NCBI GenBank assembly: GCA_018398765.1
Contig: JAHBMJ010004628.1
Location: forward strand, 45,001 to 67,500
Length of the DNA stretch: 22,500 nt
Reading direction: 5' to 3'
DNA from: Chromera velia
Taxonomy: Eukaryota > Sar > Chromeraceae
Shown: piece after piece, positions 3,000 to 9,955 of the stretch
How positions within the stretch are numbered: position 1 is the first letter of the stretch
Layout of the letters: the number at the start of each line of letters is the position of its first letter
Notes under the pieces: model-generated
Database searches by the model: none
What the model saw: only the letters and a program-made list of their open reading frames with translations
Told to the model about the DNA's origin: nothing
Program-made: the position numbers and the translations under genes

Positions 3000-4237
3000 A
3001 AATTATGATTCAAATCATTCAATAGTGAAAACAACTCATAATTTTCGCTATTTGTATTGTTAAGCATAGCAAGTAGTAAAATCGTGAACAATTTTGACTA
3101 TTTTTACTACTTTGGCGCAGTAGACCGATTCATAAATCCTATATTCCACAGTGTAATTTCCACTAAGTATTCTAGTTAGTATTAATCATAATTAAATTAA
3201 TTTCTAAATTGAAAATCAGAAAAGTCAAGCCTAACTACAGACTGAGAATCAATTGGATGATGACGATTAATGACAATTAAGGGCTCAACCCATGAGGTGT
3301 GGCCGTTGCGTATAATACTAACTCCCGAACAAACTGCTGGCAAGGAAGAATCCACCAAAGCAGAAGGGCAGCCAAGTCCAGGGCATATAGCACTGTATTA
3401 GCACATGCAAGTTTAAAAAAAAAAAAATCAACACAGTACTTTCATCATATAATATACATATCTTAAGATATGAAACTAATAATTATTAAATAATGTGAGA
3501 ACTACTACATATGCCATACACGTCACACGTGTTTCACGGCCGGTGCGTGCTGATCGATATACTCCCTGTGATACGATAAGCAGGTCTGACATGACTATAC
3601 CAGAAGGAATGCCTCCCTGCTTACAAGCCTTTAGCTACCTCCGACGTTCTTTTCCGTTTGCTTCACCTTCTCCTTCTCTTTCTCGCCTTTCCATTTAGTG
3701 ACGGCTTTTTTCTGCAGAGAGAGAATTTGAATAGATATGAAACAAAGTATAAAACGTACATAAAGTTAGACAACAGGCCACTTTTGACGAATGTATTGAG
3801 CTCGTCGATGACAAGTCGCAATCAAAAAGCGTTCCCCCCCTTTGCAATCTTTTGCTTTCTGCGCTCTCTTCTCCACTGTATTCCAACGCAAACTTCTTTG
3901 TTTCTTCTTATGCATGTATGTTGGGTCAGACTGAGCACACCAAAGCTAGAGAGAACAAAGTCGATCAGTCACTGACTTCGGCTGGGCCAACAGATCATCA
4001 ATTCAATTGCTTTGAAAGAAAAAAAATAGCCATTTCGACCGCTCACTTTCTGACTGCTGGCTGGTTCGGATATCCTTCTGCTTTGCTGCAAGCGCGTCTG
4101 ATTGACTGAAAAAGACTGACTGAATGACAGGCTCTCTGACAGAGTGACCGACTGAATAGACCCTCTGACAGAACACTAAAGCCGGGCAGGCTCACACTCA
4201 CATCTGACTGATTTGTAAGTTGCCGACTGCGTGCTAC
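3000..4237. other. non-coding: AT-rich, then downstream flank of the RRM gene
   Basis: Bases 3000-3500 are AT-rich with no usable frame and include a 16-bp perfect palindrome at 3457-3472. From about 3500 the composition changes, but the open frames seen are low-complexity Ser/Leu/Phe reads without motifs. The 3' end of the minus-strand RRM gene must lie in the right part. Its exon-5 frame stays open to a TGA at 4043-4045, and a possible acceptor with a further exon start lies near 4085. Confidence 0.45.
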
Positions 4238-4884
4238 CTCTCTGGGTGATCCACTGACCGTGTCCTTGAGGGTCTTTTCCTTTTTCTTTTGCAGACGCTC
4301 CTGGCGTTTGCCGCCCTTTCCGCCTCTGCATAGAGAACACACGCGTACCGGGAGGGAATTTGCGGAGGCAAACAAAAAAGGGAGAGAAAAGAATGAAGGA
4401 GGGAAGAAAGGAAGGAAGAGAGAAAACAAAAACCACGGAACCAGAGAAAAGAATGAACGACACGGGTCGAACCACCCACTCACCCACCCATCCCCCCCCA
4501 CACACATACACACATACACACACACCTGCACAAAACGACCAAACCCCAACAAACAAAGCGGCAGAACGGGGCAAAGTTGCAATCCAACACAGCACTGCTT
4601 TGTCCCTTCAGGCATCGTGTAGAGTATGGACAGCTCTTCTTGCTTTTTTTTGTGTTTCTGTAAACAAACTTTCATCCCGCCTAAGGCACATGCATATGCG
4701 TGGACTGTCCCGGACCGACCCTCCCACAGTCGGCTCGATTCGCACTTTCTTGCCCATCAGCGTCTGTCCGGACATCTTCAGGGCCTTCTGCGCAGGAGAA
4801 TGTCAAAACGAGCGGAGGCATGTTTAATTCCACGGCCTCTTCAAGTATCAAACCCCCACAACCAATAAAGGCATGCAGACAGAC

Positions 4885-4930
<46 letters not shown>

Positions 4931-5786
4931 GCGCACAAACACTCATGCAAGCAGACAGTCAAGATTGAAGAGCAAACTGACTGACAGGCAAGCAGGCAGG
5001 ATCATACAGGATCCCTCTGAGACGGGAGGTCAGGAAAGGTGGAAGGAAGGAAAGGCCAAAGAAAAGAACGGGAGGGTCTTGGAGTCGGGCCAGTGTCTCA
5101 GAGTGTCATGCAGAAGCAGGGCAGAAGGTCAGATGGATGCTCTTTCTCTTTGCTTCCTTCCGTTGAGTGATTCGTTGGAAGGCCCTTCCACCCTTCTCCT
5201 TCATAGTGACGACCTGCTCTCCTTCCGTCTAAACAGCCGCCCTCCCTCTCATCCCCCCTTCCTCGCTTCCTTCCTTCTGTCTGCGTTCTTCTTTCTTTCC
5301 GTCCTTCCTTCCTTCCTTCCTTCCTTCCTTACTTCCTTCCTTACTGATGTCCCTTGCATCTTCTTTTCTTCCTTCAGTGCGAGGTCTTGATTGCAATTTT
5401 GGCAAAGACTCACCGCAAGTGAGGAACTGTCTTTGAATTCCACAAAGGCACACCCTGCGTGCACACAGAGATTTACATCACGCATATATACATCGAACAA
5501 AACAGGCGGAAGGCCAGACGACCAGTATATATGTACGTTAAACTTCACGACATGGGGAATGTGGGGCTTTATTGGTCATCGGAGACTGATGTCATCACAA
5601 TGGTGTGGGAGCTCTATGACCTCTCCCGTACTTTCTGAGAGATGATTTCACTCTGCGCCTTCACCAGCCGCTGCCTCAACGCTGCCGCGTAGTCGGAAGC
5701 TGCTCTCTCTCTCTCACTCACTCACTCACTCACTCACTCACTCTTTCACTGTCTCTCACTGACTCACTCACTTACTCACTCACTCA

Positions 5787-5837
<51 letters not shown>

Positions 5838-5843
5838 TGTGTG

Positions 5844-5874
<31 letters not shown>

Positions 5875-6429
5875 ATGCATATATATAACCTTGAAAGCGA
5901 ACGCCCCACCCAACCCCCCAATGTCAGACAGAGAGACTGCGCAGACATATATGGGGAAAAACGAGAGCGTGTTGATATCTACTCACCTCTTGGTTTGTTC
6001 GTCCCCTTCTCCGTCAGTATCCGCACACTCACCAGATTCTCACCTGCACGCGTCCAAGCAAGACCATAACAATACGTACAAATCAACGTCCTCGCAGTGT
6101 GCGAAGTTCCTGAAGCGATCTTGTGGTTACGATGCTCGGACCTTTCTACATGTTTCGTTCTCACCCAAGTTGTGCTGACCTGCGAATTTGAAAAACTTGG
6201 AGATGTCCTCTTTGTTGGCGCTCTTGGGCACGGCTCCCATGAAGCAGATGAATCTCTTCGGCTGTCCCTTTCCTTTGGGTGGAACTGACTCCTTTCCCTT
6301 TCCACCACTAGGAGACTTCCTCGGAGCCTCCTGTTCTGGAGAGCCTGCTTTTCTCTTGGGGGCGTTCTGCCCGCCTTTCACTTTCGTGGCGTCAGTCTGT
6401 GCCACACTTTTCTGTTTCAGGTCAGGCAT
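4238..6429 (-). CDS. Nop6-like RRM protein, 5 exons, C-terminus unresolved
   Basis: I read five minus-strand exons with compatible phases: 6429-6180, 6043-5987, 5454-5414, 4787-4720 and 4325-4238 (504 nt, 168 codons to that point). All four introns are GT-AG. Residues 1-58 are a Lys/Pro/Gly-rich basic tail. One RNA recognition motif follows: beta-1/RNP2 (RFICFMGAVP), helix 1 (NKEDISKFFKFA), beta-2 (LVSVRILTE), RNP1 (RGCAFVEF), helix 2 (SSSLAKALKMSGQTL) and beta-4 (GKKVRIEPTV). Directly after the RRM comes Gly-Gly-Gly-Gly-Lys and then a basic, coiled-coil-prone stretch (RQERLQKKKEKTLKD). This RRM-GGGG-K-basic-helix layout is that of the Nop6 type of nucleolar proteins, which act in small-subunit ribosome biogenesis. 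The chosen start (AAAATGCC) gives no targeting signal. An in-frame ATG at 6543 would add a hydrophobic leader, which is unlikely for a nucleolar protein. The last exon may continue to a TGA at 4043 or splice again at GAG/GTAGCA (4238). Confidence 0.8.
4873..4925 (+). repeat. (AG)n microsatellite
   Basis: A CAGA/AG dinucleotide run lies in intron 3 of the RRM gene. It has no sign of function. Confidence 0.9.
5291..5345 (+). repeat. (CTTC)n microsatellite
   Basis: An imperfect CTTC tetranucleotide run lies in intron 3 of the RRM gene. On the sense (minus) strand it is a GAAG run, and it produces spurious Lys/Arg/Glu-rich open frames. Confidence 0.9.
5701..5876 (+). repeat. compound microsatellite (CT)n-(CTCA)n-(CT)n-(GT)n-(CTGT)n
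   Basis: Five simple-repeat types follow one another without a gap inside intron 2 of the RRM gene. They create the Cys/Val and Ser/Val-rich open frames seen on the plus strand, which are not genes. Confidence 0.92.
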
Positions 6430-7165: not shown

Positions 7166-9003
7166 ATGCCTCCACCCAGAGTCGATCTGTACTGTAAACC
7201 TGGCTGCCAGAGGAGCAGCACCGTATGCAAGGCCATGTCAGAGAGGGGTCCTGAATTCAACGTCATCATGGTAGGTCGGGCGGCTGCTCCCAAATTAATC
7301 CATCGGGGTTTTCTGTGGAATGATTTGTTTTCAGCGTTCGCCGAAGATTCGTACGCATGCTTTTCAAAGCCTCGCGTGCATTTTCTCTGACGTGGGGTCC
7401 AAGTGCACGTCCTTCCTCTCATGTTCATCTGCTCTCTCCGTTTCTTTGGCCTCTTTTCCCTGCATGTCGAGCGGTTTGTTTCGATCGGCTCTTAAGTCTC
7501 GATCGTGCAGGTCGGATCTCAAAAGACGTCACTTTCCCTTTTCTGTTCGCCTTCTCTCTCTTACATGCTGCACACGCATCCGTCTTTTTTCTGTCTTCCT
7601 ACATATGAACTTATTTATTCCCGTACGTATCTGACGTTTCTATTTGCCCATGTACGTCTGTTTCGGTCAGTGTGTCTGGGAATCACCGTCATGTCACCTT
7701 CCGTTGATCGTTTGACGTACCATTGTGTTCATGTCTTTCCTTCCTTGCTTGCAGGTTGATGACGAAGACACGAAAGCCCAGATCTACTCAGTCGTTCGGA
7801 GAGTCAACCCCATGGCTTCCTCTGTGCGTATGCCTGTGGCAGTGATTGGGGACGACGTGTACATGGATTTCGACGTAGACGAATTTATGAGGGAGGTATG
7901 GAGTCCCTTCTCTGAGTCCTATGGAAGGCAGAGTGCGGTTGGGGGAGGGGGAGGGGGTTCAGTGATGCACGCAGGCGGAGGGTGCTCTGAAAGGCGCCCC
8001 CGGTGCTGTCCAAGGTCACCCCGGGGCACAAAGGGTTCCCGCACTCTTGAGGTGTTTGCCAAAAAGGGATGCCAACGGTGCTCCGACCTGATTCGATCAC
8101 TTACAGAAGCCAACCTCCAACCCCACGTTTACCTCACAGACTATTGGGGGAACCGTGCTGCCCTCTGGAGACTTGTAGACGAACAGTGTGCGTCTCTAGA
8201 CTCAGTCGATCTTCCAATTTTGGTCTCTGATGGCACTCTGTATCTCTACTCCGACATTCCCAAACTCGGCCTTCCTCTCCAGTTGCCTAGAGGATTCCCC
8301 TGTTCACAGGGAGCCTCTGCTTCCAGAGTCAGTCAGACGGTCTTCCCAGCATCCTCGTCTGTCTGTGCAGATTCCAACTGCCTGCAGCCCCGACCGAACC
8401 CCTGTGCAAGCTACTGCAATCCCCCCCAACCCACACCCTGTCCCCCCCCCGCCTCCTGCCCCACCGCCGGTCAACAAGTGACTTCCAGTTGCCACGGCTG
8501 CCACGACTGTCTGCCGAAAATCCAAGTGTACGCAAAGACTGGCTGCGGGAGGTGTGCGCAGCTTCAGGACGCACTAGGCCAGCTCGGTCTAGGGTACGAG
8601 TTGTTCGACTTGAAGTATGAAGGCAACTTGGAAGCGATGTGGGATCTCCTCAACGCACATGACCCTCAGGTTGGTTTGGAGGTTGGATGATTCACTCGTT
8701 TGGTGGGTGGTTTGGTGGATGGATAAGTACTCAGTGGGTTATTACTTCATCAGTTGGTTGCTCGTTTGTCTGATCGGCCGGTCGATTGGTTGGTTTGCCT
8801 TGTCACCGTACGTGAATCATCATCTCTTATTTTCTTCTCTCTTCGGGTTCGTTTTTTGCTTTCTTTGTTGTCTTCTTTTCTTTTTTTTCTTTTCCACATG
8901 ACGTGCCCTGTTTCCCCTTTTTTCACTAGAGTCGCACGTTTCTTGTTACTCGCACTTGCCTTTCTTTTTCTCTGTCCATCTCTCTATCTTGCCTGTGCAT
9001 AAA

Positions 9004-9048
<45 letters not shown>

Positions 9049-9955
9049 CTCTCTGTCTGTCTGTCTGTCTGTCCATCTGTCTGTCTGCCTGTCTGTCTGT
9101 CTGTCTGTCTGTTCGTCTCTCTGTCTGTCTGTGAAGGAAAGACGATATAGTCTGTCTGTCTGTCTGCAGATCGAGAAGGTGAATCTCCCCGTGGTGGTCG
9201 TCAACCACATCGTGTTTGCGAACTTCGAGAGTGTCGATGGTTTCATCACCGACATCCTCCAGCCAATCGCACCCAAACTCCCGGCATCTGACCTCATGCT
9301 CTTCAAAGAAGGTTTGTTCGTTCATTTACTTTCATACAAATGCATGCGGCATCTGACCCAATGCTCTTCAAAGAAGGTTCGTTCGTTCGTTCGTTGGTTG
9401 ACACACAGGCCTTGGGCAGGCAACACTTTGTTGAAAGCGGAAAAAAGTGTCACGCTTTCTCTTTGGATCTCATGTGTCTATTGGCTCCATTGGTCCATTT
9501 TGATGTGTATATGGAGATGCCCCTTTATTCTTTCATTTTTCTCCTTTTCTGCCATGCCATGTGCTATCTACTCATATCTGCATCTATTTAGGCTCTTATT
9601 TGTTCGTCTCAAAAAGCCCATACTTCATGAGTTGATCTTCCCCCATCCAATGTCCTATGATTAACTGATAAATCTATTTCTGCATGCAGGGGTGGCGATC
9701 CAGCAGAGAGGGGAGAGTCAGTACTTCCCCCTCCCTGCGGACACATGCAACACCGGGCACGGACGCACGCAGCCGCTGCCAAAGAAAACCCTTGCCGGGG
9801 TCCGGGTGGTCCCCCCCGCCCCTCCCCGTGTGTCGATTCCGGTGTTGGACACTTACGGGAAACTGCAGTTTGTTGACCTGGAAGTCGATGACGTCGCCCG
9901 GGTGCTTCAACAGACAAACGCAGTTAGAAGCACCACCACGTTGAATATCGGATAG
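7166..9955 (+). CDS. tandem tri-glutaredoxin-like protein, 4 exons, 475 aa
   Basis: Exons are 7166-7270, 7755-8669, 9170-9311 and 9690-9955, in phases 0, 0 and 1, all GT-AG, totalling 476 codons with the TAG. Three glutaredoxin/thioredoxin-fold units follow one another. Each has beta-1, a redox motif at the start of helix 1, and a later cis-Pro strand. Unit 1 (residues about 5-80) has VDLYCKPGCQRS, a CxxS motif at C14-S17, and cis-Pro in VRMPVAVI. Unit 2 (about 135-215) has EVFAKKGCQRC (C141, C144) and VDLPILVSD. Unit 3 (about 292-375) has QVYAKTGCGRC (C299, C302) and VNLPVVVVN. A Gly-rich linker joins units 1 and 2. A Pro/Cys-rich linker with ten cysteines joins units 2 and 3. The C-terminus (exon 4) ends with SIPVLDTYGKLQFVDLEVDD, which resembles the cis-Pro half of another unit without a CxxC half. 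No signal or transit peptide is seen, so the protein is probably cytosolic. The likely role is thiol-disulfide exchange or redox sensing; the substrate is unknown. A further short intron after residue 82 (GAG/GTATGG) cannot be excluded. Confidence 0.82.
9001..9168 (+). repeat. (TCTG)n microsatellite ending at a splice acceptor
   Basis: An imperfect TCTG/CTGT tetranucleotide array fills the right third of intron 2. It runs into the acceptor TCTGTCTGCAG at 9159-9169, so the repeat itself supplies the pyrimidine-rich tract. Confidence 0.9.
9282..9389 (+). repeat. tandem duplication spanning the exon-3 splice donor
   Basis: Bases 9282-9324 recur at 9347-9389 (offset 65 bp) with only three mismatches in about 42 bases. 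Both copies include the end of exon 3 (CTCTTCAAAGAAGGTT) and hence a splice donor. The first copy gives the phase that continues into the Grx-like exon-4 frame. The second copy would read exon 4 in another open frame. Confidence 0.8.

Follow-up and report, generated by a model that had tools for sequence, protein, structure and literature searches.

What kind of redox protein is built when several glutaredoxin-like units are strung together in one chain with no thioredoxin domain ahead of them? The question is raised by a gene of Chromera velia that lies in a 22,500-nucleotide stretch of DNA (assembly GCA_018398765.1, contig JAHBMJ010004628.1, positions 45,001 to 67,500 of the forward strand), here called the window, and whose product is called W. 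A preliminary description of this DNA had proposed three thioredoxin-fold units in the order CxxS, CxxC, CxxC, which might relay electrons internally or combine Fe-S/glutathione binding with disulfide reduction. The best explanation of the evidence set out below, held as a whole with about even confidence, is that W would be a multi-unit thiol-disulfide oxidoreductase, the units of which lack the GG of the glutathione loop, resemble NrdH and YruB, and derive from duplications inside a single family.

The W gene consists of four exons on the plus strand, which join in frame to encode 475 amino acids and a stop codon, with GT-AG borders at all three introns; this in-frame join bears out the coordinates, splicing and length given in the preliminary description. 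The coding frame of exon 2 contains no stop; each of the remaining five frames has 7 to 11. The features of the gene, in window coordinates, are as follows.

7166..7270, plus strand: exon 1, residues 1-35, which holds the start codon and the first half of unit 1; GT donor, in frame.
7755..8669, plus strand: exon 2, residues 36-340, running from the second half of unit 1 through linker 1, unit 2 and linker 2 into the first half of unit 3; AG acceptor, GT donor, frame open.
9170..9311, plus strand: exon 3, residues 341-387 and one further base, covering the second half of unit 3 and the beginning of the tail.
9690..9955, plus strand: exon 4, remainder of the C-terminal tail, with the stop codon.
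7172..7907 (intron 7271-7754 excluded), plus strand: unit 1, residues 3-86, CxRS type.
7205..7216, plus strand: unit 1 active site, CQRS (CSRS in paralog A, CPRS in paralog B).
7908..8036, plus strand: linker 1, residues 87-129, with a glycine run and 3 Cys.
8037..8285, plus strand: unit 2, residues 130-212, CxRC type.
8070..8081, plus strand: unit 2 active site, CQRC (CRRC in A, CGRS in B).
8286..8510, plus strand: linker 2, residues 213-287, rich in Pro and Cys, with 10 Cys.
8511..9268 (intron 8670-9169 excluded), plus strand: unit 3, residues 288-373, CxRC type.
8544..8555, plus strand: unit 3 active site, CGRC (CNRC in A, where it spans an intron).
9269..9952 (intron 9312-9689 excluded), plus strand: C-terminal tail, residues 374-475.

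Evidence that these units are glutaredoxins in fold comes from profiles, shuffled controls and modelling. The glutaredoxin profile PF00462 matched whole W with 46.6 bits (gathering score 22.9; E 4.1e-12). The number of stretches that it picked out was three under a permissive limit of E 10 and two with the limit set at E 0.01. When the units were scanned singly against the cut-off of 22.9, unit 1 fell just under it (22.1 bits), unit 3 just over it (23.2 bits), and unit 2 gave no glutaredoxin match. Alignment of the units with one another yielded scores of 81, 90 and 104, where shuffled sequences averaged 22-23, and for each of the three pairs none of 1000 shuffles scored as high. Unit 2 is accepted because it resembles units 1 and 3, is 62% identical to its counterpart in paralog A, and has a supporting structure model. 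In this prediction, a kind of check that the preliminary description had proposed for the whole protein, unit 2 is modelled with a thioredoxin fold, and glutathione-type glutaredoxins rank first in the structure comparison of the model; the β-α-β-α-β-β-α order of that fold was found, while exon 2 modelled as a single sequence gave a poor result (pLDDT 37.8). The proposal of three glutaredoxin-fold units in this order is confirmed, the units carrying the motifs LYCKPGCQRS, VFAKKGCQRC and VYAKTGCGRC, followed by RMP, DLP and NLP, respectively. That the chain has no N-terminal thioredoxin domain was likewise confirmed, as the thioredoxin profile PF00085 has no match in W and the unit 1 profile match begins at residue 3; nor does PF00085 match either paralog array, A or B. 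As to the kind of glutaredoxin, the best sequence-profile matches of W are NrdH/YruB-type redoxins, with scores far below the curated NCBIfam values (46.4 versus 88.55 bits for TIGR02196, 26 versus 85.75 for TIGR02194).

The genome is probably photosynthetic, with 58 light-harvesting-protein matches when exons are counted one by one. W belongs to a family within this genome, which was found by searching with the YruB-type model TIGR02196 and then with the W protein, and which occupies at least four loci, only the best candidates having been scored. Paralog A (contig C1743), whose four exons are separated by GT-AG introns, encodes 404 amino acids with units of CSRS, CRRC and CNRC type, so that the order CxxS, CxxC, CxxC is kept in W and A despite their differing intron patterns. 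Intron 1 of A interrupts the active site of unit 3, which reads CNRC once spliced; A intron 2 is three codons from that of W, and A intron 3 agrees with W intron 3 in place and phase. W intron 1 is backed by A, which has no intron there and continues in sequence across the junction. Paralog B (L036, contig C27, minus strand, 5626..3261) has three exons and encodes 573 amino acids with five units, namely CPRS, CGRS, one without active-site Cys, CGKC and CTRC; in this respect, B is more extreme than the W gene. PF00462 scores 55 bits for A and 85.4 for B, and B is also above the cut-off of Thioredoxin_3 (PF13192). The DUF836 profile PF05768, with a cut-off of 26, scores W (23.8) and A (25.2) under that value and B (26.8) just over it. 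The three proteins start similarly (MPPPRV in W, MLPRV in A, MAPKV in B), 4 or 5 residues ahead of the first strand. This likeness supports the W start codon and disfavors a targeting peptide; W is probably cytosolic. The fourth locus, D (L048, contig C3794, 647-5246, plus strand), carries one unit, with SVKC instead of CxRC, close to the end of a 1533-amino-acid frame. It is a weaker match (E 3.6e-4 with W as query, 0.035 with B), and its frame, of low complexity by eye, has no Pfam match at E 0.01. A genome search with B returned the same four loci and contig C1559 at E 0.53. A further candidate on contig C179 (L010), a CxxC thioredoxin-like stretch with a weak PF05768 match, looks unrelated by eye and was set aside.

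A tree of the 12 family units, three of the genome's eight PF00462 loci and three bacterial DUF836 rows, the outside sequences being of our own choosing, split the family from all six at 99/98. The position-1 units of W, A and B (W1, A1 and B1) group together at 87/92, and W3 joins A3 at 98/99. The position-2 units are not a single group (W2 joins A2 at 99/97, with B2 apart), which indicates that the W/A and B arrays share the head unit and do not clearly share the remainder; the D unit is a long branch. In all three arrays the first unit is of CxRS type and the last complete unit of CxRC type.

The W and A genes were compared over 400 codons using NG86 rates; YN00 gave no value in any of seven regions. 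Identity is 61%, 62% and 70% in units 1, 2 and 3, where nonsynonymous divergence (dN) is 0.31, 0.29 and 0.25, respectively. Synonymous divergence (dS) is 2.1 in unit 2 and undefined (-1) in five of the seven regions, including units 1 and 3. Within the units, codon positions 1+2 are 75-78% identical and position 3 is 39-44% identical; this pattern and the low dN place the units under selection. Identity is lower outside them, at 24% in linker 1 (29 aligned codons), 36% in linker 2 and 37% in the tail. By this codon comparison, purifying selection keeps the units, and the linkers change faster. The rapid divergence of linkers and tail is what might be expected if the gene were decaying or mis-assembled and had no function, an explanation that is extremely improbable in view of the unit dN, with dS at 2.1 or undefined, and of the GT-AG borders that all introns of the three genes have.

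The active sites and loops of the units bear on the glutathione and Fe-S role that the preliminary description had entertained, and on the explanation that W is a CGFS-type multi-domain glutaredoxin, in which the CxxS unit would bind a glutathione-ligated Fe-S cluster and the CxxC units would reduce disulfides. W does have a CxxS unit, Lys stands three residues ahead of the Cys position in 10 of the 12 family units, and the fold-model ranking of glutathione-type glutaredoxins points the same way. Multi-domain CGFS glutaredoxins are moreover eukaryotic, with one to three Grx domains, according to passages of a review (PMC7503856). The motifs of W are, however, CQRS, CQRC and CGRC rather than CGFS. 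The GG-x-D loop is present in 0 of 12 family units and the T of T-x-P is absent from 11 of 12, W having RMP, DLP and NLP in that place and no GG in any unit, whereas both signatures occur in the genome's own glutaredoxins L001 (a CGFS protein with TIP and GGLD), L003 and L004. In one of these, L004 (contig C351), a single open frame combines the glutaredoxin with DUF547 (PF00462 3.1e-13, PF04784 4.3e-13). The chain also lacks a thioredoxin domain, while the genome already has a frame with both PF00085 and PF00462 and, roughly 0.4 kb beyond it on that contig, a second Grx frame. Since the genome has this thioredoxin-glutaredoxin frame and the CGFS protein L001, an Fe-S/glutathione role is less needed in W. 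The proposal of such a role was therefore not upheld, and the CGFS-type explanation is very unlikely.

If W is instead an oxidoreductase with NrdH/YruB-like units, its chemistry can be sketched from general knowledge of the thioredoxin superfamily. Units 2 and 3, with CxRC, would act on disulfides, reducing or exchanging them through the usual dithiol mechanism, and the basic residue within the motif would make the first cysteine more acidic and favor the thiolate. The CxRS head unit could attack a disulfide but would form only a mixed disulfide with its partner and would not release product alone. Another thiol, most simply that of a neighboring CxRC unit or of a linker CxxC, would resolve this intermediate. 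In such an array, substrate would be captured at the head and reduced further along the chain, with thioredoxin reductase or a pool of thiols, and not glutathione bound in the standard way, supplying the reducing power. An internal electron relay, as initially suggested, is possible. A stronger proposal, speculative and quite unlikely, is that these are lineage-specific poly-redoxins without thioredoxin, in which a conserved one-cysteine CxRS head captures substrate and the disulfide is passed along Cys-rich flexible linkers to CxRC units. If so, one chain would do the work of the separate redoxin, partner and reductase proteins found elsewhere.

Weighing against the oxidoreductase reading is the occurrence in the family of units without catalytic Cys, which weakens a simple relay and fits a binding role for some family units. 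The non-catalytic domains of protein disulfide isomerases (PDI) bind partners, and W could similarly be a redox adaptor or substrate-binding scaffold, with units that mainly bind partners and only the last CxRC unit reacting. The active-site Cys are lost in B3, only the second is kept in D1 and only the first in W1, A1, B1 and B2, and the retention of CxRC by the last complete unit of every array is as this explanation would have it. Against it, W and A each keep two CxRC units, with motifs intact in units that are 61-70% identical, and we consider it unlikely.

The linkers prompt a different explanation, that of a metal-binding or metal-stress protein in which Cys-rich linkers would bind metal and the redoxin units would reduce or load them. 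Linker 2 of W is 13.3% Cys (10 of 75 residues) and carries CHGCHDC directly ahead of unit 3, and paralog A has CGPCDDPCSPCPP ahead of its own unit 3, its linkers carrying CKPCNPC and CGPC. Cys content is 3 of 37 residues in linker 2 of A, and 3 of 43 (W) and 4 of 29 (A) in linker 1. The poor conservation of these linkers (24% and 36%) and the complete lack of Cys in the linkers of B make a metal role distinctly unlikely.

The tail of W has a counterpart exon in paralog A for exon 4, with RVS-PVLD--G-L--VD--VD in common, and the two tails share a strand-like PVLD...VD piece. In pairwise shuffles, 4 of 1000 scored as high as the tail against unit 1, compared with 370 and 289 of 1000 against units 2 and 3. 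A fourth unit in the tail is possible; it was not accepted, as the family profile gave 2.9 bits, one of 200 shuffles scored higher and the tail of A has no match there. Scores of W, A and B units against this 12-unit profile are inflated by the presence of the same units in it and are not used as proof. Elsewhere in the gene, the last part of exon 3 together with its donor site (about 9281-9319) has by eye a near-exact copy about 65 bases downstream in intron 3 (9346-9385), possibly an alternative donor. Long CTGT and other simple repeats are visible in intron 2 (about 9010-9135) and upstream of the gene (5690-5900). Among eight window frames scanned, 1020-1379 on the plus strand contains a reverse-transcriptase fragment (PF00078, 25.6 bits, under the cut-off of 29.6), which may be a retroelement remnant near the window start.

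Relatives beyond the genome were sought with short patterns or single proteins, scans that miss distant relatives; viral contigs gave none in three scans, phages gave none for unit 3, and a pattern-based scan of prokaryote genomes gave a single relative, a DUF836 protein (46% over 24 residues). Among the literature matches listed, most subscription papers being outside that scope, no title or abstract opening concerned a multi-unit glutaredoxin without thioredoxin, and the titles and abstract openings listed for chromerids with glutaredoxin described no such protein. Glutaredoxin is not mentioned in the main text of PMC4501334. The preliminary description held that the layout looks unusual, which agrees with section 7 of a 2009 domain survey, where no array lacking thioredoxin is named (PMC2679010); that survey predates the 2015 chromerid genomes. 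Thioredoxin-headed proteins are described in the relevant parts of a fold-class atlas (PMC2757866) and a review (PMC7503856).

Four known systems offer points of comparison. The first consists of the prokaryotic NrdH-redoxin, YruB-type and BC3987 thioredoxin-like redoxins, which share with W the glutaredoxin fold and a PVVV-type strand. NrdH is not known to have the GG-x-D glutathione loop, which W also lacks. The matched PDB chains of this group are 75-85 amino acids long, approximately one domain, whereas the arrays described here are eukaryotic proteins of three to five units, with Arg or Lys within the motif and CxRS heads. DUF836/Glrx-like proteins (PF05768) have CxLC in the three bacterial rows aligned, and these fall outside the W family at 99/98. 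PDI proteins are built of thioredoxin rather than glutaredoxin-like domains and have an endoplasmic reticulum signal, unlike W, in which no signal is visible. They resemble W in having several thioredoxin-fold domains per chain, one to four according to the fold-class atlas (PMC2757866). Finally, the CGFS glutaredoxins (Grx3/PICOT, Trx-Grx1-3) share with W several Grx-fold units per eukaryotic chain and one-cysteine active sites, but in the passages available they combine a leading thioredoxin domain with CGFS (PMC7503856), and W has neither. Eukaryotic multi-domain glutaredoxins are, in the sections covering them, mostly such thioredoxin-headed CGFS proteins (PMC2679010, PMC7503856). A separate NrdH-like family without GG, in chains of three and five units whose heads are conserved as CxRS and whose motifs carry a basic residue, would show a second route to eukaryotic multi-unit redoxins and would offer a natural system for testing the passing of disulfides between the redoxin units of one chain.
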